Of a DNA stretch of 64,000 bases, positions 33,239 through 61,925 are shown piece by piece. The DNA is taken from the NCBI RefSeq assembly GCF_009676705.1, contig NZ_CP046046.1:1759501-1823500 (forward strand). The letters are read 5' to 3'. Under the pieces are notes generated by a model. The model ran no database searches. It was not told the origin of the DNA and saw only the letters and a program-made list of their open reading frames with translations. Position 1 is the stretch's first letter. Every line of letters begins with the position of its first letter. This stretch comes from Spiribacter sp. 2438 (GTDB lineage Bacteria > Pseudomonadota > Gammaproteobacteria > Nitrococcales > Nitrococcaceae). The position numbers and the translations under genes were made by a program.

Positions 33239-34555
<1,317 letters not shown>

Positions 34556-34583
34556 ACCGATGCTCAAAACCTTTTAGAGCTAA

Positions 34584-35711
34584 TCACGATATCAATTCTT
34601 GATACACAGCCATCGTTCGCTCGATGACGATACGCTCATCAAACTCGGCCTGAGCTTTCCGGCGGGCGGCCTCGCCGAGACGCTGGCAAAGGGCCGGATC
34701 AGCCGCGAGTCGCTCAATAGCATCCGCCAGTGCGGTCGCATCGCGGGGCGGTACCAGCAGGCCATCGACGTCGTCGGTCACCACTTCGCGGCATCCGGGC
34801 ATATCGGTTGTGATTAATGCCCGCTCACACGCCGCCGCTTCAATCAAACTCTTGGGCAGACCTTCCCCATAATAACTGGGCAGGGCCACCGCATGGACAG
34901 ACCGAAACAATGTCGGCATGTCATCGACTTTGCCCAGCCACAGGATCAGTCCCTCATCCTGCCAGTGTCGTATTGCATCCTTCGCCACCGCCGCGGGGTT
35001 ACCGGGATCAGGCTCGCCGGCGAGCAGGAACTCCACGGCCGTCCCACGCGCCTGCAGCAACCGGGACGCCTCGACAAGCTCGCCGACGCCCTTATCCCAG
35101 AGCAGTCTTGCGGGTAGCACCACACGAAACGGTGGCGTGGCCGGCTCATTACTCGGTGGTGTAAACCGATTCAGATCCACGCCAGAGCCCTTGATCAGAC
35201 GGATATGGGCCTTATCGATCAGCCTCGCCTGCTCAAACACCGCGGCATCGTCGCCGTTCTGGAGGATCAGCCGGCTCTTTTTGCCACCCAATGCCGCGCG
35301 CAACACGCCGCGTACCAGCGGCCGCAGCAACCCGGCCTTCACTGAGCCACTGGTGAATACATAGCCCATTCCCGCCACGGCACTTACCCGTGCGCGATCG
35401 CCGGCCAGCCGCGCCGCCAGCGATCCATAGACCGCCGACTTGATGGTGAACCCGTGCACGAGGTCGATCTGCTCTGAACGGATGAACCCAACCAACCAGA
35501 TCAGCAGTCGCAGTTCGCGCCATGGGTTAAGGCTAAGGCGCTCCATTGGTGCAGCCCGCCACTCCAGACCGAGCCTCTGCAGCGCCTCGCCATAGGGTCC
35601 CGGCGGCGAGAGCAGCAGCACTTCATGCCCCGCTGCCTGCAGTGCCCGAGCCTGGGCGTAGCGGAAGTTATAGAGGTACCACTCGGTATTGGCGAACAGG
35701 AGGACTTTCAC
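34584..35711 (-). CDS. GT4-family glycosyltransferase
   Basis: 375-residue glycosyltransferase with the N-terminal NTEWYLYNFRYAQARALQAAGHEV pattern and a C-terminal donor domain (PARLLWDKGVGELVEA, YGEGLPKSLIEAAACER with the EX7E motif). This N-terminus is typical of enzymes adding GalNAc/FucNAc-type residues in O-antigen loci (WbpX/PglA-like). The start is a GTG; the frame extends 27 codons further, overlapping the preceding EpsG-like gene, which is less likely. No good ribosome site is seen. Confidence 0.85.
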   Translation of the reverse strand: MKVLLFANTEWYLYNFRYAQARALQAAGHEVLLLSPPGPYGEALQRLGLEWRAAPMERLSLNPWRELRLLIWLVGFIRSEQIDLVHGFTIKSAVYGSLAARLAGDRARVSAVAGMGYVFTSGSVKAGLLRPLVRGVLRAALGGKKSRLILQNGDDAAVFEQARLIDKAHIRLIKGSGVDLNRFTPPSNEPATPPFRVVLPARLLWDKGVGELVEASRLLQARGTAVEFLLAGEPDPGNPAAVAKDAIRHWQDEGLILWLGKVDDMPTLFRSVHAVALPSYYGEGLPKSLIEAAACERALITTDMPGCREVVTDDVDGLLVPPRDATALADAIERLAADPALCQRLGEAARRKAQAEFDERIVIERTMAVYQELIS

Positions 35712-35742
35712 AAACAATTGGGCTGATGGCCGCCCGTCAGAA

Positions 35743-36822
35743 TCATGACGCCACGAGTGGATAGAACTGATACGGCAACCACGCAGGCGCATGCGTGGCG
35801 AAGTTCAGCCAGACAAACTGCACAACCGCATAATAGACGAGGATGACGGCCACCCAATCTCGATTACTTTTCCCGGCCCGTCCAATGGCATCTGGTAAGT
35901 GGGAGAAGACGACAAGCTGGAGCGGTATCAAAAACAGCCCAAGGCGATCCAAGGCGGTTGATGAGGGAACGATTGGATACATTGCTAATAAGGTAACCGC
36001 TGCCAAAGCGACCCACCGCCAGATAACCTGCTCATGATGCAGTAGCGTAAAGCGACGCCACCAGATCAACAGGATCGCCGCCGGCACGGCATTCATCGCC
36101 AGACGCACGAGGGCCCCCGCGGACTGGTATTCCGCCTCGATATAGTTTGCGTAGAGCTGGTCGAAGTGATCCTGAACAAACACCCAGTAGGCCACAGCGG
36201 CCACGCCCCCGATTCCCAGCGTCATTATCCAGCGATTTCGGCTTCGCCCCAGTACCGCCAGCGGCAGCAGGACGACGGCAGACTTATGGAATGTGGCCGC
36301 GGCCAGAGCCCAGAAAATGAATTGCCGTTGCCGGGCCCGGAGCAGCGCCGCCAGTCCCAGCATGCTGAGGCCCAGTGCTGCACCTTGGCGGGTATAGCCC
36401 ATCATCACGACGATGACCAGATACGGAATGGCAACCGCCACTGCCAGCCACGGACGCGGTTGGGTGCGGCTGAACACCGCCAGCCCGATTGCACCGATTA
36501 GACCGCAGACGAGATTAACCGCATAGATTGTCCCGCCATTCTGGATCACCAGCCAGTTCAGCAGGTAGTAACCCGGATCACCGCCGGACAGCACATCGTA
36601 GAGGCTCAGCCAGTACCGACTTTCAAGATTCCCGATGTACGATCCCCAGTCCGCACCCACCTGATGGCGATAACCCATGAACAGCGTGAGTGTCGCGATC
36701 AGCAGCAACCAAGCGTAGTTGGGATGGTAGATACGCCGGGCGAGACGGCTGCGGGGCGAATACCAGCCACCGGCCAATGCCGCGGCGGAGGGGATGAGAA
36801 AAATCAGCCAGTACGGCCACAT
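35743..36822 (-). CDS. EpsG-like polysaccharide polymerase
   Basis: 359-residue membrane protein with about nine TM helices. Family features: FMGYRHQVGADWGSYIGNLE after TM2 and VVMMGYTRQGAALGLSML in the middle, both typical of the EpsG/Wzy-like family that polymerises repeat units at the periplasmic face. Starts 1 base after the amidotransferase stop, so coupling is expected. It is the only polymerase candidate in the locus. Confidence 0.85.
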   Translation of the reverse strand: MWPYWLIFLIPSAAALAGGWYSPRSRLARRIYHPNYAWLLLIATLTLFMGYRHQVGADWGSYIGNLESRYWLSLYDVLSGGDPGYYLLNWLVIQNGGTIYAVNLVCGLIGAIGLAVFSRTQPRPWLAVAVAIPYLVIVVMMGYTRQGAALGLSMLGLAALLRARQRQFIFWALAAATFHKSAVVLLPLAVLGRSRNRWIMTLGIGGVAAVAYWVFVQDHFDQLYANYIEAEYQSAGALVRLAMNAVPAAILLIWWRRFTLLHHEQVIWRWVALAAVTLLAMYPIVPSSTALDRLGLFLIPLQLVVFSHLPDAIGRAGKSNRDWVAVILVYYAVVQFVWLNFATHAPAWLPYQFYPLVAS

Positions 36823-36823
36823 G

Positions 36824-38731
36824 TCAGGCGCTCTCCTCGAGCCAGGCCTGAAACATCAGGATATGCCAGATCCGGGCGTGACCTTGGCGATGGCCAGCCA
36901 GATGCTCAGCCCAGCACTCGCGCACGAGCACCGGGTCGAGATAACCCTGTTGACGGAGACGGTTTTCATTCAATAAGTCCTCGGCCCAATCCCGTAGGGG
37001 CCCGCGCAGCCAATCCCCCAAGGGCACCGCGAATCCGGCCTTGGGCCGATCCAGCAGTGCCTTCGGCACATACCGATAGAGCATCTGACGCAACAACCAC
37101 TTCCCCTGCCCGTCGTGCACCTTATAGCGATCCGGGACACTACAGGCGAATTCCACCAGCCGGTGATCAAGCATCGGTACCCGGGCCTCAAGGCTGACTG
37201 CCATGCTGGCGCGGTCCATCTTCGTGAGGATGTCATCGGGGAGGTAATTTTGCATGTCCGCCAGGATCATCTGTTCACGCAGACCAAGGCCATCAGGCGG
37301 GGCCGCGCCTTGAACGGGGATAGACCCGGAGGCGTTGGCTCCAAGCACGAGTACTGCCGGGTCGTGCCACCCGGCGCGGAGTCGATGATAGAAATCCATT
37401 CCATCCGTTGCGCCGATGGCATCGCGGAGCTTTTCCAGTTTTTCACCGAGCAGCGGTGTAGAACTGCTGGCGGTCAGTCGCCGCGACCGCAGTGCCAGTG
37501 ACAGAGATCCGGCAATTGCCCGGCGCATCGGTTGGGGCAGCAGTCGGAGCCCGCGCCATAGCTTCGGCCCCGCGACATGACGGTTATAGCCGGCGAAAAG
37601 CTCATCGCCACCATCACCGGAGAGGCTGACCGTGACCTGCGATCGGGCAAGTCGGCTCACTAGATAAGTGGGGATCTGCGAGGAATCCGCGAAGGGCTCG
37701 TCGTAGATCGTGGGCAGGCTGGGGATGACCCCCATCGCCTCATCGGGGGTGACGTAGAGCTCGGTGTGCTCCGTACCCAGGTGTCTGGCAACGGCGGCGG
37801 CATGCACGGCCTCGTTGAAGCCGGATTCGGTAAAACCAATGGAGAACGTGCGCACCGGCTGCGAGCGCTGCGCCTGCATCTGCGCCACCACCGCTGAGGA
37901 ATCGTAACCTCCGGAAAGAAACGCCCCCAGTGGCACATCGGCTTCCATGCGCAGGCCCACTGCATCCCGCAGGCGGTCATCGAGTTGATCAATCAGCGCG
38001 TCGGCGCCCCAGGACTCATCCGGCCCATTGGCTGCGATGGCTGGCAGATCCCAGTAGCAAACCGGCTCGCTGATCCGCTGTCCACCATCGCTGACTACCA
38101 CATAGTGCGCTGGCGGCAGCTTGCGAATGCCCTGATAGATGCAATGCGGGGCCGGCACATTGCCATCGCGCATGAACGCCGCCAGCGCGTCGCGATCAAT
38201 CGCGCCCACCCACTCCGGGTGGGCGGCGAGTGCCTTTAGCTCGGACCCAAAAAGGAAAGTGCCGTTCGCGTAGCCGTAGTAAAGCGGTTTTTCGCCCATG
38301 CGATCACGGGCGAGGGTGAGGCTGCGACACTGCCGATCGTAGAGCGCGAATGCGAACATGCCATTCACCCGCTTGAGCGCACTCTCAATGCCCCAGTGGC
38401 GCAGGCCGGCTAATAAGGTCTCGGTGTCGGAATGGCCTTGCCAGTCAAAGCCGCCCCCTTCGGCCTCAAGATCCGCCCGCAGCGCGCGGTGGTTGTAGAT
38501 CTCGCCGTTGTAGACCAACACATAACGCCCGCAGGGCGAGTGCATGGGTTGGTGGCCCGCGGGCGAGAGATCGATGATGGAGAGACGCCGGTGGGCCAGC
38601 GCAACGCCGTCACTCCCTTCAGTCCAGACACCGGCGTCATCCGGCCCGCGGGTGGTGATCCGTGCGGCCATGCGCTCGGCGAGATCTCCATCCGCCGATC
38701 CCCTACCCCAGAAGCCAATGATACCGCACAT
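36824..38731 (-). CDS. Asparagine-synthase-type glutamine amidotransferase
   Basis: 635-residue AsnB-like enzyme. Cys2 of MCGIIGFWG is the glutaminase nucleophile; YNGEIYNHRALR is the class II GATase motif. The synthetase half has the ATP PP-loop SGGYDSSAVV (Gly-Gly then Tyr-Asp-Ser) and SLSGDGGDELFAGYNRH. In polysaccharide loci such proteins (e.g. WbpS) amidate uronic-acid sugars, here a likely target given the uronate pathway. Cytoplasmic. Confidence 0.9.
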   Translation of the reverse strand: MCGIIGFWGRGSADGDLAERMAARITTRGPDDAGVWTEGSDGVALAHRRLSIIDLSPAGHQPMHSPCGRYVLVYNGEIYNHRALRADLEAEGGGFDWQGHSDTETLLAGLRHWGIESALKRVNGMFAFALYDRQCRSLTLARDRMGEKPLYYGYANGTFLFGSELKALAAHPEWVGAIDRDALAAFMRDGNVPAPHCIYQGIRKLPPAHYVVVSDGGQRISEPVCYWDLPAIAANGPDESWGADALIDQLDDRLRDAVGLRMEADVPLGAFLSGGYDSSAVVAQMQAQRSQPVRTFSIGFTESGFNEAVHAAAVARHLGTEHTELYVTPDEAMGVIPSLPTIYDEPFADSSQIPTYLVSRLARSQVTVSLSGDGGDELFAGYNRHVAGPKLWRGLRLLPQPMRRAIAGSLSLALRSRRLTASSSTPLLGEKLEKLRDAIGATDGMDFYHRLRAGWHDPAVLVLGANASGSIPVQGAAPPDGLGLREQMILADMQNYLPDDILTKMDRASMAVSLEARVPMLDHRLVEFACSVPDRYKVHDGQGKWLLRQMLYRYVPKALLDRPKAGFAVPLGDWLRGPLRDWAEDLLNENRLRQQGYLDPVLVRECWAEHLAGHRQGHARIWHILMFQAWLEESA

Positions 38732-38746
38732 CGAATAACCCGCTTA

Positions 38747-39514
38747 CTAATTGTCGGCGACACGCGAGAACAAGACGATTAACATGCTACCCACGCTAGC
38801 CACCACCGCGTAGTACGCAGCGAGGATTACATAGCCGAGTGCGGAGTCATACGGCCACAAGGCCAGTATTCCCGCCAACGGCATACAGAAGAAGAAAAGC
38901 CTGAATTCAGGACGCTGACGGCCTGGCATGCTCAAAAGCCCTTTGCTGTCGAGGTAACCAAACATGCGGAAACCCACATAGGCCATGGCGGCTGCAAGCC
39001 CAACACCCATCCGCTGTGAGTCCTCAACCACGAACATGACCGGTGCCATGAACCGCAACCAGGCAAGCCAGAGAAAGGTGGCTACCTTCAACTCCCTATC
39101 TTGCAGGAGATTATGAAGCGTGAAGACCACGCCCAAGGTCACGAAGAAAGACCACCATTCCGGGGTAGCCAGGAGCCCCAAGAGCATGGTGACCACCAAG
39201 AACATTGCAATCCGCGAGCCAAACCATGCCGCTACCCAGTAGTAACCGGCCCCCTGAGGACCCCTTTGCCGCCCGCCTTCCTCCCATTTGGCAGCAAACA
39301 GGTCGTTAACGAGATAACCGATCTCGTACAGGCTGATAAACGCAAGGTAGGAAAGCCCGGCAATCGCTATGGACTGCTCCGGAGCCGCGGCGCCGATGGT
39401 CACTGCGAGAACGACCGCAGCCACCCATTCGAAAACGAGGTGAAATGTGATGCTTCCACTCCGCAATCGCGTGTTATGAAAATAGCTAAACGGCAGAAGG
39501 TAGACAACGTTCAT
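38747..39514 (-). CDS. UbiA-like polytopic membrane protein
   Basis: 255 residues, seven or eight TM helices. The first loop reads YEIGYLVNDLFAAKWEE, which has the N-D start of the UbiA prenyltransferase NDxxDxxxD motif but with Ala at the second Asp and Glu at the third; a later loop holds MFGYLDSKG. Overlaps the HAD gene start by 4 bp. HAD plus UbiA pairs are known in phosphoribosyl-lipid synthesis (DPPR synthase type). Activity here is uncertain because the metal-binding motif is degenerate. Confidence 0.55.
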   Translation of the reverse strand: MNVVYLLPFSYFHNTRLRSGSITFHLVFEWVAAVVLAVTIGAAAPEQSIAIAGLSYLAFISLYEIGYLVNDLFAAKWEEGGRQRGPQGAGYYWVAAWFGSRIAMFLVVTMLLGLLATPEWWSFFVTLGVVFTLHNLLQDRELKVATFLWLAWLRFMAPVMFVVEDSQRMGVGLAAAMAYVGFRMFGYLDSKGLLSMPGRQRPEFRLFFFCMPLAGILALWPYDSALGYVILAAYYAVVASVGSMLIVLFSRVADN

Positions 39515-40194
39515 CCGTCCACCTCAACAAACGTGGCATTCACACCATCCCATCGTTCACGATGCGCAGGATCATGCAGTACCACATAGGAGTACGCCGC
39601 CTCCTGAACCAAGGAACGGTCAGTGAGATTGTCGGTGAGCACACACACCTGCCCCGAAAGAAGATCTTCGCCGTATTTTTCGACGAGAGCCTCTCTTTTC
39701 TGCCCGGTCAAATCATTCTCATAACGTCCGGTAAGAACGCCTGCACGGTGCTGGAGCTTACTGGCGACATAGCCAACTCCTGTTGAGGTGGCCAACGCAG
39801 AAACCACAGGCTCGAGGCTCGCAGAGGCGAGAATGACACGTCCGCCAGACAACGGTTTTTCGAGCAGTAACCAGACGGTCGGAACCCTGCGCTCGAGCAA
39901 AAGAGCTTCCGCATATTCCCGGGCACTTTGCTCGACCGCCTGGAGGCGGTCTCCGGCCAGCAACCGAACCGCAAAATGCTTCAGCAGATGACGCCCAGTC
40001 ATTTTCTCGGCGATCGCAAACGCGACCCAGAAAGGACTACGACGCGTGCTTACCGCCTTGAAAAGCCAACTGCGGAGCGGTCGGGCACGATCGCTATCAA
40101 AATGATGCCTTAGGAGCCCGAGCGTAGTGTCATCTCGTACTAGCGTGCCGCACACGTCGACAACGTATACTTCAGCTTTGCCGCCAACGCTCAT
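39511..40194 (-). CDS. HAD-superfamily phosphatase-like protein with altered motif I
   Basis: 227 residues in SerB-like (HAD-IB) order: motif I VVDVCGTLVRDD (13-17 DVCGT), helical cap, motif II LASASLEP, Lys motif GQKREAL, motif IV VLTDNLTDRSL. The nucleophile Asp13 is kept, but the general acid/base position two residues later is Cys15 instead of Asp. Coupled by 4-bp overlaps to the GT gene upstream and the UbiA-like gene downstream. Probably processes the lipid-phosphate product of its neighbour, or is catalytically changed. Confidence 0.75.
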   Translation of the reverse strand: MSVGGKAEVYVVDVCGTLVRDDTTLGLLRHHFDSDRARPLRSWLFKAVSTRRSPFWVAFAIAEKMTGRHLLKHFAVRLLAGDRLQAVEQSAREYAEALLLERRVPTVWLLLEKPLSGGRVILASASLEPVVSALATSTGVGYVASKLQHRAGVLTGRYENDLTGQKREALVEKYGEDLLSGQVCVLTDNLTDRSLVQEAAYSYVVLHDPAHRERWDGVNATFVEVDG

Positions 40195-41450
40195 CCCTGC
40201 ACACCGAGTTGTTCATAAATCTCGCGGTAAGCATGCTTCGCGTTCTCCAGCCCAAGACGCTCATGGGCAGCCCGTCGCAAGCGATCGCCACCTTTAGCAC
40301 TAATCCTATCCAGTTCGTCAGACACCATCCGGTATGCATTCGGAGCTTCCAAGTCAATTAACATCCCGGCATCAAGGTCGTGCGTAATCCTATCCACATC
40401 TCCAACACCGGAATTGCTGATCGCCGGAATACCTAATGCAAAAGCCTCGGCGAGCTTTGTGGGCGAACACGCCATCTGAGAATACGTAGAGCGTCGGAAG
40501 CTCAACATGATGTCCGAAATGCCTAGCAACTTCGGGACTTCCTTACGACTGGCTGCCCTCACGTAGATGCGATCCCGAAGATCCCTCATCTCCAACCTCA
40601 CGAGGTTGGCTTCTTGAGCATCAGACCAGTCACGGGTAATCAAGAGCAAACACACATCATCCCTTCCCATTGCAATCGTCTTGAACAACCTCAACATGTC
40701 ATCCAGCAGGTAGATGGTTCCGAGAGAGCCCAGGTAGGATAAAACTATCGTATCTGGAGCAATATCAAGCTCCGAGCGAATTGATGTTCTCTCATCTGCG
40801 GCCAAACTCTTGAAGTGTTCGAAATCAGCGCAACAAGGTATGACCGTGATTGGCGCGTTCGTACCCGGCGCAAGTTTGTAGATTTCGGGCACTACCCGTT
40901 CGGTGAGCACGACAACTGAATCCGCACATTCAAGAAGACGCCTTTCAACCCGCTTGTAATACCAATAAAGCAGTCGATAGCGGTACTTGCTCTGTGGCCA
41001 CAAGTTGCCTTCTACCCGTTCATCCACCCACAACCCACGCATATCGAAGATGTTTTTCACACCAGTCAAACGGTGCAGGAAACAACCGACTTGCATGGCC
41101 TGATAGCTGCGGCAGTGCGCGAGACCGAACCGATATCGCAGTTGAAGGCCAAGTGCCGATCCGTACATCTTCATCAGGTCCCAAGCCTTACCTACCATGC
41201 CGAAGCCCGCAGTGAAGGACAACGGGGTCCAGTGAATCCCCTTATCTCCCAACTCTTCTCGAAGTGTCCCGGCCTCCTCGCGAAACCGGTCAGGCTTCTC
41301 GAAGCTGACGACATGCAGCGGCCTTGTGTGCTCAGCAATATTGTACAGATAAGGCAGAATCTGGCTACCGCCAAGAGGATCAAGCAGCCCATCGTACGTG
41401 ATAAATAAGGCCCCATTCCTTTTAGCTGGGCGACTTCCTTCAAGACTCAT
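40191..41450 (-). CDS. GT4-family glycosyltransferase (intact member of a local family)
   Basis: 419-residue GT-B enzyme. The N-terminus FITYDGLLDPLGGSQILPYL and the LHVVSFEKPDRF strand define a subfamily shared with broken genes at 42740-42940 and 50935-53775. The middle has AHCRSYQA and FDMRGLWVDERVEG. The donor domain shows SYLGSLGTIYLLDD and SPTKLAEAFALGIPAISNSGVGD. It is the only complete copy of this subfamily in the window. Lower GC than the first 30 kb. Confidence 0.87.
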   Translation of the reverse strand: MSLEGSRPAKRNGALFITYDGLLDPLGGSQILPYLYNIAEHTRPLHVVSFEKPDRFREEAGTLREELGDKGIHWTPLSFTAGFGMVGKAWDLMKMYGSALGLQLRYRFGLAHCRSYQAMQVGCFLHRLTGVKNIFDMRGLWVDERVEGNLWPQSKYRYRLLYWYYKRVERRLLECADSVVVLTERVVPEIYKLAPGTNAPITVIPCCADFEHFKSLAADERTSIRSELDIAPDTIVLSYLGSLGTIYLLDDMLRLFKTIAMGRDDVCLLLITRDWSDAQEANLVRLEMRDLRDRIYVRAASRKEVPKLLGISDIMLSFRRSTYSQMACSPTKLAEAFALGIPAISNSGVGDVDRITHDLDAGMLIDLEAPNAYRMVSDELDRISAKGGDRLRRAAHERLGLENAKHAYREIYEQLGVQG

Positions 41451-41542
41451 GATTTTCGTGCCCGCATCTCAAGCTCAAAGCATTTACCCTTTTCAATTAG
41501 TTCCCGTTGAACGAAAACGGTATTACCGACAGGTAACTAGAT

Positions 41543-42259
41543 CTAATCGCCAAATCGATATGCAAACCGCTCGATATCCCGGGAATATAAGGACCTAACG
41601 ATATCCACCATTTCGGGACTGTACGCCTCCTGATATGACTTCCCCGTACCTCTTCTCCGATGAGGCAAGGACGCATCGATACCTAGTTTGTCCATGACAT
41701 GCTCGAAATCCCTCTCTAACCACTCGAACCGCCCGATAAAGTCAACGCAGAGATCACCTGTTCTCGGGTCTTCGAGCCAGTCGACCTGATCCCTGAAGTG
41801 ATCATATCGCTTGATCATCGAGCCATAATTCAACGATGGGTCTGCAAGTCGAAGCACAAAATCTTCAAACGAATTGATTCCCACTAGCATGACGGTTGCC
41901 CAACGGTGATCTCGATGCGTGTCTGAACCGATACGACGATTGAAGTACTGATATGCGGAATACAACCTATCCCAAGGGTTACGAACGAAAGTGAATTTGA
42001 AATATTTACTCACTATGTCTGGGTGATATGCCAGATGCCGACGTATCGGCCGATGCCCTACTGATGAGCCAAACAAGGCTTCGGCTATACTACTCCCGGC
42101 CGCCTTGGGTATATGCACAAAGATAGAACAATGGCTATGGAACCCCTTAACAAAGGGATCGCCCGCGGGCCATGCAGTGCGATATACCCAGCCGGGGATA
42201 CGGATGTTGAACTGAGCGTCCTTGACCCGAATCTGAGTTCTGTCACGGATCGTCAGCAT
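41543..42259 (-). CDS. Sulfotransferase (Sulfotransfer_2 / carbohydrate type)
   Basis: 238-residue PAPS-dependent sulfotransferase. The 5'-phosphosulfate loop is HIPKAAGSS (49-57) and the 3'-phosphate site FVRNPWDRLYSAY (91-103), the usual pair in chondroitin/HNK-type carbohydrate sulfotransferases. AAGGA precedes the ATG closely. No PAPS-making genes are in the window. Expected acceptor is the locus glycan. Confidence 0.85.
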   Translation of the reverse strand: MLTIRDRTQIRVKDAQFNIRIPGWVYRTAWPAGDPFVKGFHSHCSIFVHIPKAAGSSIAEALFGSSVGHRPIRRHLAYHPDIVSKYFKFTFVRNPWDRLYSAYQYFNRRIGSDTHRDHRWATVMLVGINSFEDFVLRLADPSLNYGSMIKRYDHFRDQVDWLEDPRTGDLCVDFIGRFEWLERDFEHVMDKLGIDASLPHRRRGTGKSYQEAYSPEMVDIVRSLYSRDIERFAYRFGD

Positions 42260-42739: not shown

Positions 42740-42940
42740 TTACAATTCACCGCTCACGGTAGTGCAAAGCCCCGAGTCCACCCAGGTTATCGCAACGCTG
42801 TCAGCCATGTCCTCCGGCTTCTCAAAGGTGACCAGGGTAATCGCATGGTCCCGCGACAGCCCGCGCAGGTAGCTCATCACCTGGCTCTGGCCGAGTGGCT
42901 CGAGCAGGCCGTTGCGAGTGAGGTAGAGGACCGGCTTCAC
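42740..42940 (-). pseudogene. N-terminal fragment of a GT4 glycosyltransferase
   Basis: Only the first ~48 residues of the 40191-type subfamily remain: YLTRNGLLEPLGQSQVMSYL followed by ITLVTFEKPEDMAD, then unrelated sequence to a stop. Begins in ATGA overlap with the ATP-grasp gene stop, so it was once part of the same operon. It may be the 5' end of the relic that follows at 42338-42715, with the middle deleted. Confidence 0.75.
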
Positions 42941-43809
42941 TGCGGCGCGCCGTCTCGAAACAGGATGTCACTAACGCGCTTTTCGCCTTCGCGACTTCTG
43001 AAACGCCCGTGCGCCGATTCAGGGCAGTGCGTCAGCTCACCAACAAAGAAGCGCTCTCCGGAGACAAAAAAGTCGACGCGAACGAACTCAAAGCCCGCCG
43101 ATAGAGCCCTAGCGGCTTCCATCATCGCGTCCAAACATTTCGGCGCGTCTTCCCAAGCGCCCGCTGGATAGTTGTACTCCTCCATTATGCGGTCCCAACC
43201 GGCGGAATAGAGATTCCGTCGATGGTCTGTGTGCCGGTGGCTGTCGACCTGGATCAACCGCGGGACGCCACCGAAACAGAAAACCTTGTAGTCCTTGGTG
43301 TCGGGACCATCCGGGAGCATCGGCTCGACGATTAGGCGCGGGCGAAGGAAGCGATAATTGGCTTCCCGCGCCTCTGTATAAGGCGACTTCTGTAATGAGC
43401 GAGCGAGCGTCGCGCGATTCTGCTCTGACAGCTTGCTTTGGCCGTCAGCAACGAAAACGACCGACCCGCTACTGTGTGCGGGCTTGATCACGCATGGCCG
43501 CGAAAGCTCGCTCACATCGATCTCATCGACGTGCTCATACACAGCTAGCGTGTTAAGGGTGAGATCACCACCACACCGGCTTTTGACGAAGTCTTTCACC
43601 ATCAGCTTGTCGGAGGTGATTTGGCGGAAAATATCCAGGAGAGCCGGCGATGTCTTTAAAAAATAAAAGTAGTCATTGAGAAGGCCGCTATCCCGCCGTG
43701 GAAGCCTTCTCTGCGCATAGGCGAAAATGACGAACAGGTACAGTCGGTCGAAAAGGCCACCGTAGGGAAGACGGCCGAGTAGCCGGCGCGCGTAATGAGT
43801 CAATGGCAT
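42937..43809 (-). CDS. TupA-like ATP-grasp protein
   Basis: 290 residues, matching the TupA-like ATPgrasp family. MVKDFVKSRCGG near 75-86 is the substrate/ATP lid start. RPCVIKPAHSSGSVVFV is the grasp loop with its Lys, and DYKVFCFGGVPRLIQVDSHR and FEFVRVDFFVSGERFFVGEL (acidic metal ligands) complete the site. Such proteins in teichuronic or capsular loci are thought to form amide links on uronate sugars. ATG at 43809 has GGGGAG six bases upstream. Confidence 0.85.
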   Translation of the reverse strand: MPLTHYARRLLGRLPYGGLFDRLYLFVIFAYAQRRLPRRDSGLLNDYFYFLKTSPALLDIFRQITSDKLMVKDFVKSRCGGDLTLNTLAVYEHVDEIDVSELSRPCVIKPAHSSGSVVFVADGQSKLSEQNRATLARSLQKSPYTEAREANYRFLRPRLIVEPMLPDGPDTKDYKVFCFGGVPRLIQVDSHRHTDHRRNLYSAGWDRIMEEYNYPAGAWEDAPKCLDAMMEAARALSAGFEFVRVDFFVSGERFFVGELTHCPESAHGRFRSREGEKRVSDILFRDGAPQ

Positions 43810-43810
43810 A

Positions 43811-44495
43811 TCAGCTCCCCGCAACAAGCTCTAGATAGCACGCGGCTTGCCTGGCCGGGCGGAAGTCCTCGGCTCGTGCCTTGAGTCTGTCCAGGTCGTC
43901 GGGTGAGTGTGCGGCCTCCTCTATGGCTTTCGCCATACCGGGGGTATCCCCCGTTGCGACGAGCCTGCCGAAGCGGCCGCCGTCGAGAATCTCCGCTGAG
44001 CCACTCAAACAGTCAGTGCTCACCACCGAGACGCCGGCGGCGAGAGCCTCGACGATGACGTTGCCAAAGCCCTCCCAATTCGACGACAGGACGAAGACAT
44101 GGGCGTGCTTCAGAAAAGTGGCCGGGTTGGGACAGAAGCCGGGCATCCACAGGCTCTCGCCGACGCCGAGATCGCGGGCGAGCGCCTCCAGCTCGCCGCG
44201 CAGGGGCCCTTCGCCGAGGATAAGCAGCCGCGCATCGCGGCGGCCCCGCAGATCGGCGAGGACGCGTAGGAGGACGTCGTAGCCTTTCGCCCGCTTGAGC
44301 GTGCCGACGGCGATTAGGCGCGTCTCGCCCGCAAGCCAGCCGTCGAGGGCGCGCCGGTCCTCGGTGGTCATGGCGTCTGGATTCATGGGGCGGACCGGGT
44401 TGTGTATGACCTCAATCTGGTCGCGGGGGAGACCGGCGGCTGCGCCGAGGCTTTCCGCGACTCCCTCTGAGACTGCGACCACACGGTGGCAGGGG
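43811..44495 (-). pseudogene. GT4 glycosyltransferase, 5' end removed at IS3 junction
   Basis: About 228 codons coding the C-terminal donor half: LIAVGTLKRAKGYDVLLRVL, ARLLILGEGPLRGEL, and LSSNWEGFGNVIVEALAAGV (EX7E). Coding continues in frame up to the IS3 inverted repeat (CHRVVAVSEGVAES), so the N-terminal acceptor half of ~150 residues is missing. It is not found elsewhere in the window, suggesting deletion after insertion. Confidence 0.85.
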
Positions 44496-44499
44496 GGTT

Positions 44500-45528
44500 C
44501 TACCCCACCACCACGGACGGTTTCGTTAAGCGTCGTTTCTGATCCATTGGTTGTTCAACCCGCCGACGCATTCTCGGGTTGTGGAATCGCTCAATATAAT
44601 CAAAGACATCACTTCGCGCCTCGGCCTGCGTTAAATAGCGCCGGCGGCGAACCCGGTCACGCTTGAGGAGACCGAAGAACCCTTCTGCTGCGGCGTTATC
44701 GCCACAGTGGCCAACCGCGCTCATGCTCCAGATGACATTATGGTCGCGCAGAAAAGCCTGGTATTCACCACTGGTGAACTGCGTCCCGCGGTCGGAGTGC
44801 AGGATCACCGGGCTATTGTCTTCCCGCTGCCAGTTCGCCATCAGAACCGCTTTGAGCACCAGATGTTGGTCTTGCCGTGCACTCATCGACCAGCCGATAA
44901 CCACGTTGTTGTAGAGGTCAATGACCGCAGCCAAATACAGCCAACTCTCGCCGGTACGGATATAGGTGATATCCGTCACCCACCGCTCGTTGGGCGCTGC
45001 CGCGCTGAAGTCCCGTTCGAGATGATTGCTCACCGCCACCGGTCGGCTGCCAGAGCGCTTGCGACGCCATGCGCGACGTTGCGGAATACCCTGCAGCCCC
45101 TCGGTGGCCATCAGCCGGGCCACTCGATTGAGGCTGAGAGACTCCCCCTCATAGAAGAGCTCCTCATGAATACGAGGGGCTCCAAGAACACCTTGATGGT
45201 CTTCGTGAAGCTCCCGCATGCGCCGGCGCAGCCGTTGGTTCTCAGCAGAACGCTGGCTTACCGGTCGTGCAAGCCAAGCATAGAACCCGCTTGGCGAGAC
45301 TTTCAGACAGCAGCACATCAGTCGGACAGAATATTCACCGCGACAGCGCTGGATCACCGGGTACCGCCGGGTGACTCCCTGGCGAAGAACGCTGCCGCAT
45401 CGCGCAAAAAATCCCGTTCCTTTTTCACCCGAGCAAGCTCTCGCCTCAGCCGGGCGACATCTTCGTCTCGTGGTTGGCCCTTGCCGGGGGAAGAGTCCTC
45501 GCCAGCGGTGTGGGAAGCCCGGCACCAA
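44500..45528 (-). CDS. IS3 transposase OrfB (element A)
   Basis: DDE integrase-fold transposase. The HTH_21-like start YPVIQRCRGEYSVRLMC is at about residue 56. The catalytic triad can be read as Asp in WVTDITYIRTG, Asp in ILHSDRGTQFTS and Glu in NAAAEGFFGLLKRD. The first ~55 codons overlap orfA in another frame, so the normal product is probably an OrfAB fusion made by -1 frameshifting. Appears intact. Confidence 0.88.
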   Translation of the reverse strand: MVPGFPHRWRGLFPRQGPTTRRRCRPAEARACSGEKGTGFFARCGSVLRQGVTRRYPVIQRCRGEYSVRLMCCCLKVSPSGFYAWLARPVSQRSAENQRLRRRMRELHEDHQGVLGAPRIHEELFYEGESLSLNRVARLMATEGLQGIPQRRAWRRKRSGSRPVAVSNHLERDFSAAAPNERWVTDITYIRTGESWLYLAAVIDLYNNVVIGWSMSARQDQHLVLKAVLMANWQREDNSPVILHSDRGTQFTSGEYQAFLRDHNVIWSMSAVGHCGDNAAAEGFFGLLKRDRVRRRRYLTQAEARSDVFDYIERFHNPRMRRRVEQPMDQKRRLTKPSVVVG

Positions 45529-45677
45529 CGCTCGAGGACCGAGCGATGAATACCAAGATCATGCGCAACGTCTTTGATCGTCACATCAGGCCGACTCGCG
45601 AGCTCGACCGCTTCCTCTTTGAACTCTCGACTGAACCGTCGTCTCTTCTGTCCCATCGGACACCTCCTGCTTCCCAT
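45354..45677 (-). CDS. IS3 transposase OrfA (element A)
   Basis: 107 residues: helix-turn-helix RRRFSREFKEEAVELA ... IKDVAHDLGIHRSVLERW, then a leucine-zipper-like helix (VARLRRELARVKKERDFL). This is the DNA-binding part of the OrfAB transposase. The run of six T in the overlap region (around 45405-45411, minus strand) is a candidate slippage site. Confidence 0.88.
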   Translation of the reverse strand: MGSRRCPMGQKRRRFSREFKEEAVELASRPDVTIKDVAHDLGIHRSVLERWCRASHTAGEDSSPGKGQPRDEDVARLRRELARVKKERDFLRDAAAFFARESPGGTR

Positions 45678-46895: not shown

Positions 46896-47578
46896 CTACA
46901 TCCTTGAAGCGGGAAATCCAGCTCTCCCTGTGTTGCTGTTTTCACGCCCTGTTCCTCGTTTTATATATACTTTTTGAATCAGAAATTGGCTGTCATACAC
47001 TTTCAACGGCCCAGCCGATTTTGCACCGCCTAGGAAGTCTCTAACTGCCCTCCTCACAGGGTAGTGATATTCCGCACCCCATTTGTAATCATCTCCAACA
47101 ATCACCCCCCCTTCTTGATCTTTTCGTAACTAAGCCGGAGATCTTCCAAAACATATCCGTAATAATGGTTTCCGTCTACATAGATCCAATCGAATGTTTC
47201 ATCCTCAAAGCTTATCAACACATCTTTGGACGAGCCTCGGTGCACATGCACTGCTTCATCCTCTGCGAATGCCGTCTTCACTGCCTCGAAAATATCGTCC
47301 ATATCCTTCTGGCCCTTCGCCTCCTTACCGCCATACATCCGGTCGGGATACTCGTCCTGAAACGCCCACGGATCCACCAAGTGCAGCTCTTTGGGGTCGG
47401 TTACATCCAAAATTGACCTACTAAACTGACCCTTCCAGACGCCTATCTCCGCACAGACGGAACCTTTCGGCATTTTTCTCAACACATACATGCGGGGATC
47501 ACCCCCATGGAGAATCTTACGCCCAACAGAACTAACCACGTTTTTTACAATCAACAGACCTCTCCTCTTAAATTCCAA
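46896..47578 (-). pseudogene. Class I SAM methyltransferase with a homopolymer frameshift
   Basis: The first frame (47102-47578) codes SVCAEIGVWKGQFSRSILDV (SAM motif I), LHLVDPW and FDWIYVDGNHYYGYVLEDL, ending at KKGG-stop. The next frame continues exactly where expected with IVGDDYKWG and VRRAVRDFL. The break lies in a run of seven G (minus strand, 47105-47111); one more G would restore a ~227-residue protein. Either an inactivating indel, a sequencing error or a phase-variable switch. Confidence 0.8.
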
Positions 47579-48395
47579 GCACCAAATCTTTCGAGTATTC
47601 GTACCCCATCTCTGCGGCCAATCGTTTCGTGCGATCTAGGACCTTTTTGGCCTGCTTCTCTGTTAAAACGCCAGGCCAAGTGTTTATCTTTGGCTTAATT
47701 TCCTTACTAACCTGCTCAGCGCGCACGGCCATATTCCCTTTCTGCTTTACCGAGTCATAGGCGGTATCGCCTTTAGCGATTAGTCCCGCCTGCCATGGAA
47801 GGTTCAAGAAGTCGCACAGCTCGCGAAACCCGACTTTAGGCTCCCTCGTCAAGTTTTCATAATTAACAACTTTCACAGAACTTTCGCCCCGGAGGGACAG
47901 AATTCTTTTATTATCCACCTTCCAGCGAGCGATGGCGCCTTCCAAATTCCCGAACCTCGTGTAGAGAGATGCGACATTATCGAGGGGATTGCGGACGATA
48001 GCAATGAACATTGCATCCGGCAGCACCCGCTTGATTTTTCTTACCGCATGTACATGCTTAGGGGTCTTTTCCAAAACCAGACCCTTCCCTTCAAGCTCCG
48101 CAAAATAGGACCACTCTTTGACGATTCGGCGGGAACAATGCGCACCGAAACCAGGGCCGAATGCGTTGGTTTCTCTCCCAATCAGGAAGACATCTGAATG
48201 CCCACCGAGTTTGGCTGCGATTAACGTGGTCCCACTATGACCGCAGCCAAGGACAAAGCCGAACCGGAGATCGGAGATATAAGGCTTAATGAATGGATCC
48301 GGAACTGAATTCCAAATCGATACGGCGCGCTGACGAAGCCAAGGTCCAACAGGGGTGTAATGAGAAACCGAATATTTTGATGGGATATAAATCAT
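47568..48395 (-). CDS. Sulfotransferase family protein
   Basis: 275 residues from the ATG at 48395; in-frame upstream ATGs at 48434 and 48536 are possible but add unconserved sequence. The 5'-phosphosulfate loop is LGCGHSGTTLIA (49-60), the 3'-phosphate site IVRNPLDNVASLYTRFG, and VVNYENLTREP follows. Second PAPS-dependent enzyme of the locus, distinct in subfamily from the one at 41543. Overlaps the methyltransferase start by 11 bp. Confidence 0.82.
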   Translation of the reverse strand: MIYIPSKYSVSHYTPVGPWLRQRAVSIWNSVPDPFIKPYISDLRFGFVLGCGHSGTTLIAAKLGGHSDVFLIGRETNAFGPGFGAHCSRRIVKEWSYFAELEGKGLVLEKTPKHVHAVRKIKRVLPDAMFIAIVRNPLDNVASLYTRFGNLEGAIARWKVDNKRILSLRGESSVKVVNYENLTREPKVGFRELCDFLNLPWQAGLIAKGDTAYDSVKQKGNMAVRAEQVSKEIKPKINTWPGVLTEKQAKKVLDRTKRLAAEMGYEYSKDLVLGI

Positions 48396-48647
48396 TATCT
48401 CTGACTCGCTTGATACCTCAGGGAAGACGCTCATGGGGCCAGATGGCTGAACTTTCCATCCGGGTTCTACCGCGGCACCAAAGAGATAAGCTAAACGGTA
48501 GGTACGAACCCAGCGAACAAGCCAAAAAACACTCAACAGGAAAAATGCCGTAAACTGTTACGTCCCGGATGATTCTATTTCCCCGAGGAGCTATCCTTTG
48601 TGGTGTGCACGCGAACTGCTGAACACTGTGCTCGAGGAGGCCCGACA

Positions 48648-49675: not shown

Positions 49676-50692
49676 TGTCCACGGGGGAGCTCCGAGGGAT
49701 GCTGAGTTTGCGGACTTGGCAACCCAATGAAGGAGACCCCCGTGGACAGTCATCACAATGCCGCGCTCACGCCTCGAGGTCGAGCCCGGATGGTTCGTGC
49801 CGTCATCGATCAAGGGCTGAGCTATCGCAAGGCAGCGGAACGCTTCCGTGTTGACCCAAAGACGGTTCAGCGCTGGACGCAGCGCTACCGGCGATACGGC
49901 CACAAGGGGGTATACCAGCGATCTTCGCGCCCGAAGTGTCAGCCACGCCGGACACCGAAGCGGATCGTGCGGCAGGTCATTGCGAGGCGCCGACAGCGCT
50001 GGACCATGGATCGCATCGCCATGAACATGGGCATCTCCCGGGCAACCGTGTGCAGGATCCTTCAGCGCAATAGGCTCAATCGCCTGAGTGCACTGGAGAT
50101 CAAACCACCGCCGCAGCGCTATCAGTATGAGAACCCCGGCGACCTGCTCCATCTGGACATCAAACAGCTCGGCCGCTTTGAGCGTGTCGGCCACCGCATC
50201 ACTGGACGCCGCGTCGGCACATCCCGCGGCGCTGGCTGGGAATATGTGCACGTGGCGATCGATGACTGCTCGCGCATTGCCCACAGCAAGATCCAGGACT
50301 CAGAGACCGCCGATGCCGCAGTCGACCACCTATTGGCGGCCGTACGCTATTACCGATCGCTCGGCGTCACGATCCGGCGCGTGCTGACCGACAACGGTGC
50401 CTGCTATCGCTCAAAGAAGTTTGCCGCGATGTGCCGCTGTCTGGGTATACGGCACCGGTTTACTCGGCCTTACACGCCGCGCACCAACGGAAAAGCCGAG
50501 CGCTTCATCCAGACGGCGCTGCGCGAATGGGCTTATGCCTTCGCCTATACAAACTCTACCGAGCGAGAGCAGCACCTGCCGCGTTGGCTTCACGACTATA
50601 ACTGGCATCGCCAGCACGGTAGTCTCAATCACCAGACACCGATCAGCACCCTCGGGCTATCTGGGGACAACCTCATGAGACTGCACACCTAG
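49676..50692 (+). mobile_element. IS481-family insertion sequence (second copy)
   Basis: Left end starts TGTCCACGGGGGAGC at 49676. A related inverted motif (GGGGACAACC, reverse GGTTGTCCCC) lies near 50664-50673, and the transposase stop is at 50692. Immediately beyond, a minus-strand glycosyltransferase frame begins, so the element sits at a gene break. Right boundary is uncertain by about 20 bp. Confidence 0.7.
49742..50692 (+). CDS. IS481-family transposase (second copy)
   Basis: 316 residues from GTG, six bases after AAGGAG; the ATG at 49727 lies before that site. HTH DQGLSYRKAAERFRVDPKTV, then DDE core: Asp in LLHLDIKQLGR, Asp in VLTDNGACYRS and Glu in NGKAERFIQTAL. The C-terminus GLSGDNLMRLHT is typical. 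Only distantly similar to the first IS481 copy. Appears intact. Confidence 0.9.
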   Translation: MDSHHNAALTPRGRARMVRAVIDQGLSYRKAAERFRVDPKTVQRWTQRYRRYGHKGVYQRSSRPKCQPRRTPKRIVRQVIARRRQRWTMDRIAMNMGISRATVCRILQRNRLNRLSALEIKPPPQRYQYENPGDLLHLDIKQLGRFERVGHRITGRRVGTSRGAGWEYVHVAIDDCSRIAHSKIQDSETADAAVDHLLAAVRYYRSLGVTIRRVLTDNGACYRSKKFAAMCRCLGIRHRFTRPYTPRTNGKAERFIQTALREWAYAFAYTNSTEREQHLPRWLHDYNWHRQHGSLNHQTPISTLGLSGDNLMRLHT

Positions 50693-51815: not shown

Positions 51816-53406
51816 CCCGGATAATTCATCAGGCGAGAGATAGAGGGATGACGCGACGCTCGATTCCCCTCAAAATCAGTGTTGTGCAGACATTGAGAAA
51901 GAAGGAGAGCGCCGCGCCATGGGTGAAACGCTATCGCTGTTCGAGCCGTCGTTCAATGGTTCCGTGCGGGTGGAGACGCGCTCCGAGCGCCTCAGTGGCG
52001 ATGGCGGTTTCCTGCTGCTGCGCGAAGTCCTCGATGACACCGGCCTCATTGACCACCTCGTCGGGCGGCTGCACGACCCGCGCTGCCCGGAGCGTGTCGT
52101 GCATTCACTCCCGGAGCTGCTGCGCGAGGCCGTTGCCATGATCGCTCAGGGCTGGGGTGATCAGAGTGATGCGCAACGGCTGCGCGACGACCCCTTGCTC
52201 GCGCTCGCCGGCAGCGACCGGCGTGGTGTGGCGGCCGCCGGCAAGACCCTGGCCTCGCAGTCGACGTTCTCGCGGTTGCTGGACTTGCTCGCGCAGCCCT
52301 GCAACCAGGCGGTGATCGACACCGCAGCGCTGGAGCTTGCCACGCGGCGACGGGCCGCAGCCGGTGCGCCGCCGGCGCCTGTGATGACCGTCGATGTCGA
52401 CGGTCTGCCGCTTGCCGCCCCTGGCGCGCAGGCCGCCGCGTGGATCCCGAAGCTGGTCGCCACGCTGCGCGAGCGTGGTCTCGCTCGGCAGGTGCGCTGC
52501 CGGCTCGATGCCGGGTTCACCGACGGCGCCACCCTCGAGGCGCTGGACCAGGCCGGGATCGCCTACCTCGGTCGGCTGCGCGACAATGCCGCGCTGGACC
52601 GCCACTTCGACCCGCACCGCCGGCGCGGCCCGGGGCGTCCGGCGGAGCGGCCTCGGGAGTGGACCGAGGAGACGGGATACGGGACCGAGAGCTGGCAGCG
52701 CAAACGCCGCGTGGTCATGGTCATCCAAGAGCACCCGGCCGAACTCTTTCGGCGGTGCTTCTACATCGTCACCAATCTGCCCGCCTCGACCCACAGCGGC
52801 GAGCAGGTGCTGGCGCTGTACCGCCGCCGCGGCAAGGCCGAGGGGCACATGGGCGAGTTCAAGGACACCATCGGCACCTCGCTGCCGTGCACCTCGCGGG
52901 GACGGGCCAGCGAGGCCGAGGTCTTTGCTCGGGCGCAGGCACTGCTGTCGTTGCGGCTGCTCGCCTATGAGCTGCTGCACGTGCTGCGCGCCCAAATGGA
53001 GGCGGCCACCGGCCGTGGCTGGAGCCTGCGGCGGCTGCGCGAGCGCGTGCTCAAGGCCGCCGCCCGCGTCCAGCGCCATGCACGCCGGCTGCATGTGATC
53101 CTGGAGCGTCGCGCCGCCACGCTGTGGCGCAAGCTCCTGGGGCGGCGTCACCGATGGCGACTGGCCGCATGACGGCGTCCGGTTCACCGCAAAAAGCCAT
53201 CCTCGACGCGCTGGAACACTTCGGCGATGGGGGCGCTCGTCTGCAGCGTGGCCAACCGGCTTCGAGAGCCCCTTTTAAGGCCGCTCATGCGGGCCTCGCA
53301 CCCGGTTCGGAACCGTTGAACCCGCCACCGGCTGCATCAACGAAGGCGATCGGCTCATGAACAGTCAGTCAGCCAGGCCGAATCATTGGCTGGTGCATTA
53401 GGCGGG
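51816..53406 (+). mobile_element. IS1380-family insertion sequence (complete)
   Basis: 1591 bp. Terminal inverted repeats of about 19 bp: left CCCGGATAATTCATCAGGC, right (reverse complement) CCCGCCTAATGCACCAGCC. Both flanks carry ACACA (51811-51815 and 53407-53411), a 5-bp target duplication, indicating a simple, relatively recent insertion into a glycosyltransferase gene. The 230 bp between transposase and right end hold no other gene. Confidence 0.92.
51919..53172 (+). CDS. IS1380-family transposase
   Basis: 417-residue DDE transposase. Conserved order: LSGDGGFLLLREVLDDTGL, MTVDVDGLPL (first Asp), RLDAGFTDGATLEAL (second Asp), YRRRGKAEGHMGEFK (Glu region), and the basic SLRRLRERVLKAAARVQRHA tail. 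Reads away from the left end; no frameshift. Likely active. Confidence 0.9.
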   Translation: MGETLSLFEPSFNGSVRVETRSERLSGDGGFLLLREVLDDTGLIDHLVGRLHDPRCPERVVHSLPELLREAVAMIAQGWGDQSDAQRLRDDPLLALAGSDRRGVAAAGKTLASQSTFSRLLDLLAQPCNQAVIDTAALELATRRRAAAGAPPAPVMTVDVDGLPLAAPGAQAAAWIPKLVATLRERGLARQVRCRLDAGFTDGATLEALDQAGIAYLGRLRDNAALDRHFDPHRRRGPGRPAERPREWTEETGYGTESWQRKRRVVMVIQEHPAELFRRCFYIVTNLPASTHSGEQVLALYRRRGKAEGHMGEFKDTIGTSLPCTSRGRASEAEVFARAQALLSLRLLAYELLHVLRAQMEAATGRGWSLRRLRERVLKAAARVQRHARRLHVILERRAATLWRKLLGRRHRWRLAA

Positions 53407-60373: not shown

Positions 60374-60381
60374 TAGGCGGT

Positions 60382-60960
60382 TCAGTCCAGGGGCTCTAGG
60401 GCGTCGCCATCGAGGCGATAGCGCTCGCCCGTCACGGGACACTCCGCTTCAGCATGACCAGTCAGCGGCAGATTCAGGCGCTCACCGTGGCGGCTCATCC
60501 AGCCGATGGGCTGGGCGGGCACGCCGGCCATGAGCGCATAGGGCTTGACGTCGTGGGTGATGACCGCGCCGGCGCCGATAAAGCAGTACTCGCCCAGCGT
60601 CACACCACAGATGATGGTGGCGTTGGCGCCAATGGTGGCGCCCCGTCGCACCCGCGTCGGCCGGTATTCCGCCTTGCGCGTGACGGCCGAGCGGGGGTTA
60701 TGCACGTTGGTGAAGACCATGCTCGGGCCGCAGAAGACCTCGTCTTCCAGCACCACGGCGTCGTAGACGCTCACGTTGTTCTGGATCTTGCAACGGTCAC
60801 CGATCACCACGTCATTGCCCACAAAGACGTTCTGCCCGAGCGAGCAGTCCTCGCCAATGCGCGCGCCCCCGCAGACATGCACCCAGTGCCAGATGCGGGT
60901 ACCGGTGCCGATCGCAGCACCGGCATCGACAATGGCGGTCTCGTGCGCCTGGTAGCTCAT
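60382..60960 (-). CDS. wbpD: UDP-2-acetamido-3-amino-uronate N-acetyltransferase (WbpD-like)
   Basis: 192-residue left-handed beta-helix acyltransferase: hexapeptide repeats run from about residue 15 to 140 ([60 protein letters not shown]). His/Asn residues of the WbpD active site lie in [11 protein letters not shown]. Acetylates the 3-amino group to give UDP-GlcNAc3NAcA. Starts 2 bases after wbpB ends. Confidence 0.92.
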
Positions 60961-60962
60961 GA

Positions 60963-61925
<963 letters not shown>

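Follow-up and report, generated by a model that had tools for sequence, protein, structure and literature searches.

The window analysed here, a stretch of 64,000 nucleotides from Spiribacter sp. 2438 (contig NZ_CP046046.1, positions 1,759,501 to 1,823,500), carries three consecutive genes for a GT4 glycosyltransferase, a haloacid dehalogenase (HAD) type protein and a UbiA-like membrane protein, which are read from the minus strand (41450-38747) and joined at both junctions by ATGA overlaps. The HAD protein and its membrane partner were found to belong to a conserved split pair in which a cysteine in HAD loop I (two residues after the nucleophile, +2) and an altered UbiA motif are retained together (29/29 HADs, 28/28 partners), as a first-pass annotation of this DNA had suggested be checked. 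We propose, tentatively and at somewhat below even probability, that HAD, membrane protein and GT4 enzyme form a split, membrane-embedded module for pentofuranosylation (ribofuranosylation), dependent on phosphoribosyl pyrophosphate (PRPP) and placed at the cytoplasmic face. The module would be a new variant of PRPP-dependent pentofuranosylation, the conserved and as yet unnamed enzyme set most likely attaching a ribose-type sugar.

The HAD protein and its conserved cysteine

Loop I of the window HAD reads VVDVCGTL (D13, C15, T17). Cysteine was found at +2 in every one of the 29 HADs (the window, one further genome and 27 loci), in a loop of the form D-[VI]-C-[GDN]-T-L, and is among the 15 invariant columns of a 28-row alignment; D13, C15, T17, S124, K166, D188 and D192 are constant there, and Trp215 of the HAD is likewise invariant. 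The nucleophile Asp, motif I Thr, motif II Ser, motif III Lys and motif IV acids of the superfamily are kept and Asp+2 is not, and no additional invariant acid or His able to replace Asp+2 was found in the 28 aligned HADs. L032, apparently the same locus as L018/L013, was counted once, L051 (cut membrane gene) was counted for the HAD only, and L019 was included among the 29 HADs and 28 partners and left out of alignments A3 and A4; kin strains (four each of Halomonas, Psychrobacter, Hymenobacter and Aliiroseovarius) are present in the set and are not independent.

The AlphaFold model of the HAD (predicted local distance difference test, pLDDT, 93.7) has a Rossmann core with a cap, and was aligned with 3fvv at Z 19.2 (root-mean-square deviation, rmsd, 3.1; 210 residues aligned) and with phosphoserine phosphatase 3m1y at Z 16.0 (rmsd 3.9; 192 aligned). 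Fold and motifs II-IV are shared with HAD-IB phosphoserine-phosphatase-like enzymes (3fvv, SerB), which use an acid/base Asp where the window HAD has Cys. The window HAD scores near the NCBIfam models TIGR01490 and TIGR01488, below both cut-offs; PDB sequence searches returned only distant SerB-type chains and chance matches, and a pattern scan of the collected open reading frames (ORFs) for DxFDT-type HADs found none.

Profiles were compared by using hhalign, the percentages being those of single-pair comparisons, not of database searches. The HAD profile matched the phosphatase domains of canonical fusions of a HAD to polyprenyl phosphoribose synthase (PPPRS) at 96.6% (controls 0.2 and 0.6%); the canonical profile was built from at most 20 of 25 sequences, L056, L075, L082, L083 and L089 being left out. 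At +2 the canonical fusions carry Asp in 23, Asn in two and Cys in none of the 25 with a readable loop I; the loop pattern allowed only Asp, Asn or Cys at this position, and 10/35 sequences (mostly short, without HAD) gave no loop. The fusions with Asn, L056 and L089 (GLNGS, DLNGS), represent a separate loss of Asp+2.

A second family, in which the HAD is fused to a UbiA-like domain in a single polypeptide where the window has two genes, was found as five proteins (L094-L098) in 4/299 genomes. All five keep DxD in the HAD, and their membrane part has YE.GY..ND, followed at N+4 by Ala or Gly and at N+8 by Glu (counted from the motif Asn); Cys+2 therefore marks the split, GT4-linked lineage, and the altered membrane motif does not require it. 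No Pfam or NCBIfam family was found for the membrane part in the three of five proteins scanned. Two of the fused proteins, L094 and L098, are encoded in a single genome (G298). The first-pass annotation had named Asp in homologues as the sign of a private mutation or decay; Asp is found in the fused sister family (5/5) and Cys in each split homologue, and since Cys+2 is constant in 29/29 and the membrane motif change in 28/28, private mutation or decay of these motifs was ruled out.

HAD branches without Asp+2 include P-type ATPases, phosphonatases and dehalogenases. A non-hydrolytic HAD is less likely than the first-pass annotation held, because CrpP of Haemophilus influenzae type b (Hib), reported to be a glycan ribose-5-phosphatase, is also without the second Asp (PMC10299916). 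A non-catalytic reading, with the HAD serving as a structural or regulatory subunit and its membrane partner as a scaffold or lipid binder, would agree with the absence of Asp+2 from all 29 HADs but is highly improbable: the nucleophile, Thr, Ser, Lys and motif IV acids are invariant in 28 rows, and a scaffold would hardly need the polar residues of the membrane protein that are invariant in 27 rows (R16, E64, Y67, N70, D71, H134, N135, R154, R183 and K191).

The membrane protein and its altered motif

The motif of the window membrane protein is YEIGYLVNDLFAAKWEE, with N70-D71, Ala at N+4 and Glu at N+8; these residues, the DVCGT loop of the HAD and the two ATGA overlaps stand in the sequence as the first-pass annotation had read them. 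The family consensus is Y-E-x-G-Y-x-x-N-D-x-x-[AGSI]-x-x-x-[ED]. Asn-Asp is constant in the 28 readable partners; N+4 is Ala in 14, Ser in seven, Gly in six and Ile in one, never Asp, and N+8 is Glu in 22 and Asp in six. From the NDxxDxxxD motif of the UbiA superfamily, N and D are thus kept and the N+4 Asp is gone in 28/28. Conservation of YE, GY..ND and the following [AG] is partly built in, the genome-scan patterns (peptides ending in YE, or containing GY..ND plus following [AG]) having contained those residues; Cys+2 was not contained in them. The altered motif is a conserved feature of the family, and "degenerate", as it had been called, is the wrong word because the alteration itself is conserved.

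Glu stands at N-6 in 28/28 split-family proteins, as against Ser in 33 and Gly in two of 35 canonical PPPRS. Tyr at N-3 is common to the split family (28/28), the fused sister family (5/5) and canonical PPPRS (35/35), and is replaced by Ala and Cys in the two ordinary UbiA proteins of the same genome. Only the N-3 and N-6 counts are informative for the 35 canonical PPPRS, because the selection pattern fixed Asp at N+4 and N+8. By periodicity the N-6 Glu would share a helix face with Tyr and Asn, and it may compensate for the lost N+4 Asp.

PF01040 was matched by none of 27 family members (E up to 1), and no convincing Pfam model was found for them, the window protein giving a sub-cut-off holin match (E 0.0089). 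NCBIfam matches were absent from the two members scanned, and the PDB yielded no relative of the family by sequence search. The PPPRS model NF008977 has two matches in the same genome, at 301 and 311 kb, and none at the window gene. When the predicted membrane model (pLDDT 93.4) was submitted to Foldseek, at least 46 of the 50 rows listed were isoprenoid-synthase or UbiA types by title, including 4tq4 (A. fulgidus UbiA) and 8j8j and 8j8k (Rv3806c structures), the best E-value being 0.25. VIA-align gave Z 8.1 with 8j8j (rmsd 4.5; 180 aligned) and higher values with soluble synthases (best 9.5), below 13 for a helical bundle. A resemblance of the predicted model to the UbiA/isoprenoid-synthase fold is supported by these matches, if weakly, and no different fold, which the first-pass annotation had allowed for, was shown. 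By hhalign, the membrane profile matched the membrane part of the fused sister family at 97.6% and PPPRS at 40.5% over 222 columns, YxxND falling on YxxND (five controls 0.0-0.4%), the latter value rising to 50.7% when the query also included the fused family. The link to HAD-UbiA phosphoribosyl chemistry drawn in the first-pass annotation is partly supported by the HAD and membrane profile comparisons, with the fold matches to 4tq4 and 8j8j at weak scores.

The loss of the N+4 Asp together with the invariant N-6 Glu (Ser/Gly in PPPRS) suggests a rebuilt site, and the HAD has no new invariant acid or His; the UbiA-like transferase might accordingly use another phosphosugar or prenyl donor, and the DxCxT HAD might be a phosphotransferase or act on a substrate with a good leaving group. 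We consider such a different donor or reaction unlikely, given that Tyr at N-3 is kept, that the HAD is otherwise complete and that CrpP is reported to act as a glycan ribose-5-phosphatase without the second Asp (PMC10299916).

Distribution and gene neighbourhood

The membrane gene occurs in 1/54 genomes of the order, its own, and among 59 relatives the sole strong match to the HAD is the HAD itself (weak partial matches in eight others, at most 35% identity). Two true membrane homologues, 57% and 27% identical and each beside a HAD reading DVCGT, were found in 398 genomes of the phylum; weak matches L015, L016 and L017 (E 0.003-0.008) were dropped, there being no HAD/membrane pair among their ORFs. 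Plasmid, phage and viral-contig searches found no relative. Scanning of a species-genome collection with a three-sequence membrane alignment gave 27 loci confirmed from 59 pattern matches. The loci are from Halomonas, Psychrobacter, Alcanivorax, Alloalcanivorax, Arenimonas, Aliiroseovarius and another alphaproteobacterium, and also from Hymenobacter, Rufibacter, Adhaeribacter, Fulvivirga, Niabella, an Eremiobacterota and an Acidobacteria metagenome-assembled genome. The nearest relatives are from Halomonas (64-67%). The membrane family is rare in Bacteroidota, since the pair was found in 1/296 genomes of a sample (E up to 1e-8), that one being the centre genome itself.

The HAD gene lies directly before the membrane gene in 27/27 loci, which were found by the membrane gene and not by the HAD, and the two genes overlap in 26/28 loci, the other two being 2 and 13 nucleotides apart (first start codon taken). 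HAD and membrane distances correlate with r 0.92 (378 pairs), for which common ancestry may be a sufficient cause. In 27/29 loci the pair has a GT4-cluster gene as its immediate neighbour, directly upstream in 25 (24 from two main clusters, plus L032) and directly downstream in L035 and L046; L033 (UDP-N-acetylglucosamine 2-epimerase upstream) and L039 have none. The GT4 clusters are single-linkage BLAST groups, and six of the 27 adjoining genes were checked individually against Pfam. PPPRS matches (E up to 1e-15) were found in 5/18 host genomes (those of 19 loci, less that of L039), one of the five covering model positions 4-148 only; the pair therefore does not depend on PPPRS and is no regular companion of it.

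Neighbouring genes (at least 170 amino acids (aa), within 9 kb) were tallied at 11 of 27 loci, 125 of 128 being used and three long genes dropped. GT4, amidotransferase, acyltransferase, epimerase, EpsG and Wzx-type flippases head the list of families, ABC transporter genes also being among the commoner ones; in no fewer than 9/28 loci the membrane gene is followed immediately by an amidotransferase gene. The 25 commonest of the 104 families include neither a GT-C family nor MatE, and any GT-C family can therefore match no more than three of the 125 neighbours. Among the genes within about 10 kb that were scanned individually, L043 alone gave a PMT_2 match, and the one MatE match was to a Wzx-like protein of L033.

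The tally bears on a lipid-donor version, in which the pair would make polyprenyl-phosphate-ribofuranose for a periplasmic GT-C enzyme by phosphoribosyl transfer to polyprenyl phosphate and then 5'-dephosphorylation, as in the three-component system of Citrobacter youngae. Such a route would explain the pairing of HAD and UbiA-type protein, known from ORF15 (PMC11127046), the kept YxxND and the PMT_2-type GT-C gene directly after the pair in L043; it is rather unlikely in view of the scarcity of GT-C families in the tally, the usual partner, which is a GT4 enzyme and by family of the nucleotide-sugar type, and the N+4 Asp lost in 28/28. The modified lipid-linked sugar pathway of the first-pass annotation is possible, though its GT-C partner is not a common neighbour. 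Because GT-C is uncommon near the pair and the usual partner is a nucleotide-sugar enzyme, the neighbourhood suggests a glycan acceptor in preference to a lipid donor; with 25 of 104 families shown, this evidence is suggestive only.

Near the pair in Bacteroidota, eight loci encode proteins of about 450 aa (cluster C11; L036 10780-12132, L038 10843-12192, L046 7675-9027 and L039 8003-9343), which matched nothing in Pfam (three members scanned) or NCBIfam (one scanned), and which are possibly an unlabelled polymerase. At the EpsG position in Psychrobacter loci stands a protein of 393 aa (cluster C21; L029 4932-6113) with no Pfam or NCBIfam match.

The region around the triplet resembles a flippase/polymerase-type polysaccharide locus (Table 1). 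The amidotransferase encoded after the membrane gene probably amidates a uronic acid, the ABC transporter is a candidate flippase of the locus, and two sulfotransferases suggest a sulfated polymer. The grouped DegT aminotransferase, acetyltransferase and inositol-dehydrogenase-like genes, together with the TviB-like dehydrogenase, correspond to the genes that a 2,3-diamino-uronic acid would be expected to require. The TupA-like gene adjoins a glycosyltransferase gene, and transposase and integrase genes lie inside the region. In keeping with the first-pass annotation, no DprE1/E2-like gene turned up among the window genes scanned, no model search having been aimed at DprE1/E2. The guanine plus cytosine (G+C) content is 0.51 at 40001-42000 (over the GT4 gene) as against 0.61-0.70 across the first 32 kb, and similar drops are seen at 56-60 kb. 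The polysaccharide cluster was probably acquired from elsewhere, because the G+C content falls at the GT4 gene and the nearest relatives are from Halomonas.

Table 1. Features of the window with their positions, strand and supporting evidence
Feature	Position	Strand	Evidence
GT4 glycosyltransferase, 419 aa, first gene of triplet	40191-41450	-	PF13579 41.5 bits (cut-off 29.7)
HAD-IB type protein, DxCxT loop I, 227 aa	39511-40194	-	PF12710 28.4 bits (cut-off 27)
UbiA-like membrane protein, 255 aa	38747-39514	-	predicted model and motif counts; no UbiA match in Pfam
Asparagine-synthase-like amidotransferase, next gene after membrane gene	36824-38731	-	PF00733 402.4 bits
EpsG-type (Wzy-like) polysaccharide polymerase	35743-36822	-	PF14897 169.6 bits
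Second GT4 glycosyltransferase	34584-35792	-	PF00534 97.6 bits
Nucleotide-sugar dehydrogenase, TviB-like	33239-34567	-	NF011729 548.9 bits (below cut-off 592); TIGR03026 376.7 bits (above cut-off 189.8)
Sulfotransferase, same cluster as triplet	41543-42259	-	PF03567 53.7 bits
TupA-like ATP-grasp protein	42937-43827		PF14305 144.9 bits
IS3-like transposase ORFs	44500-45677		reading of sequence
Sulfotransferase	47568-48536
IS481-type integrase	49727-50692
IS1380-family transposase	51919-53172
DegT aminotransferase, hexapeptide acetyltransferase and inositol-dehydrogenase-like genes	59255-61922
ABC transporter with fused membrane domain	61971-63773	-	PF00005 and PF00664

The proposed module and known systems

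In the ribofuranosylation module that we favour, the UbiA-like protein would bind PRPP through Tyr67, Asn70, Asp71, Glu78 and the family-specific Glu64, and would transfer the phosphoribosyl group, more probably onto a lipid-linked glycan than onto free polyprenyl phosphate. The DxCxT HAD would remove the 5'-phosphate through Asp13, with Cys15 either replacing the usual acid/base Asp or leaving its role to the substrate or partner. The GT4 enzyme would extend (or prepare) the ribose, making the linkage next to the pentose, and the finished unit would be flipped and then polymerised by the EpsG-type polymerase. Conservation, coupling, HAD fold and motifs were observed as described above; the donor, the acceptor, the order of steps and the role of the cysteine are inferred.

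PRPP is a plausible donor by sequence, because the Tyr and Asn of mycobacterial Rv3806c are kept at the same spacing, though its Asp77 position is lost; in Rv3806c, Asn73 and Asp77 hold Mg-PRPP and Tyr70 binds the 5'-phosphate (PMC10994848). Several points weigh against the module. The Mg-binding Asp77 (N+4) is absent from all 28 members here, and the D251A variant of C. youngae ORF15, altered at this position, is inactive in vitro and severely reduced in vivo (PMC11127046). No Foldseek E-value was below 0.001, UbiA and 8j8j come after soluble prenyl synthases in the ranking, and Z values of the size obtained may in helical bundles reflect only a common arrangement. By hhalign the split family reaches PPPRS at 40.5% only, and the fused sister family alone fails to reach it (1.0% and 0.1%). 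Cys+2 is no mark of HAD-PPPRS chemistry, because the canonical fusions have Asp+2 in 23/25; the likeness to CrpP extends to the loss of the second Asp, whatever residue stands at +2 there or in Cj1432M (see below). Among the papers listed by a literature search there was no report of pentose in these polysaccharides and no ribofuranose paper. As to the lost N+4 Asp, the Mg contact of ORF15 is assigned to N247 and D255, not to N+4 (PMC11127046); if this assignment is right, the Glu/Asp at N+8 here matters more than the lost N+4.

A further proposal, which we regard as doubtful, is that the membrane proteins make up a new family of glycosyltransferases: UbiA-fold, PRPP-dependent enzymes that would place phosphoribose directly onto lipid-linked glycans, with the N+4 Asp traded for an intramembrane Glu (E64), and paired with a HAD whose Cys+2 site the membrane partner or substrate completes. 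If the module is as proposed, conserved membrane proteins that have neither a Pfam model (27 scanned) nor an NCBIfam match (two scanned) would gain a function, and a third pentofuranose route in bacterial glycans would stand beside the soluble PRPP-dependent enzymes and the lipid-donor three-component system. The natural DxCxT series, with its DxDxT sisters, would serve as a probe of the need for a general acid/base Asp, and the pair as a marker predicting ribose-type sugars in the polysaccharides of Halomonas, Psychrobacter, Hymenobacter and Aliiroseovarius.

No description of the split HAD/membrane pair was found in literature searches (the outlier groups of Kelly et al. 2022 lie outside the comparison). 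Rv3806c (8j8j) has the Tyr-x-x-Asn spacing in common with the window family and is listed among its weak-scoring fold matches; the mycobacterial phosphatase is not a HAD (PMC11127046). ORF15 of C. youngae, a fused HAD (PRP)-polyprenyl phosphoribose synthase, is like the window pair in combining a HAD with a UbiA-type protein in a polysaccharide locus and in the N and D of the motif. It has N247, D248, D251 and D255 in one gene, whereas the window family never has Asp at N+4, has Glu at N-6 and Cys+2 in the HAD, and is encoded by two genes. Variants of ORF15 at N247, D248 and D255 are described as barely active in vivo, and none as active in vitro (PMC11127046). A GT-C transferase and a MATE flippase are employed by the lipid-donor three-component system (PMC11127046). 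The usual neighbour of the ORF15 system is MATE plus GT-C, that of the window family GT4.

Two other related systems are soluble multidomain proteins, which differ in this from the pair with its membrane partner. Cj1432 of Campylobacter jejuni has GT4, HAD phosphatase and PRPP-transferase domains in that order, each of which was assayed (PMC12096443); because it begins with a GT4 domain, its order GT4-HAD-phosphoribosyltransferase is the gene order here. Its Cj1432M hydrolyses transferred ribose-5-phosphate at 3.4 per min and is 31% identical to CrpP (PMC12096443). Hib Bcs3 (CroT-CrpP-CriT) likewise follows the order of the window genes, from a glycan-extending enzyme through a HAD phosphatase to a phosphoribosyltransferase; CrpP is reported to remove the 5-phosphate from transferred ribose, with only the first Asp of DxD conserved, and CriT resembles soluble PRPP-transferases, not UbiA (PMC10299916). 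The gene set and its usual order fit a ribofuranosylation assembly of the Cj1432/Bcs3 type, no search having been aimed at a CriT-type domain, and the proposed module would work like soluble Cj1432, a UbiA-like protein standing in for the soluble transferase.

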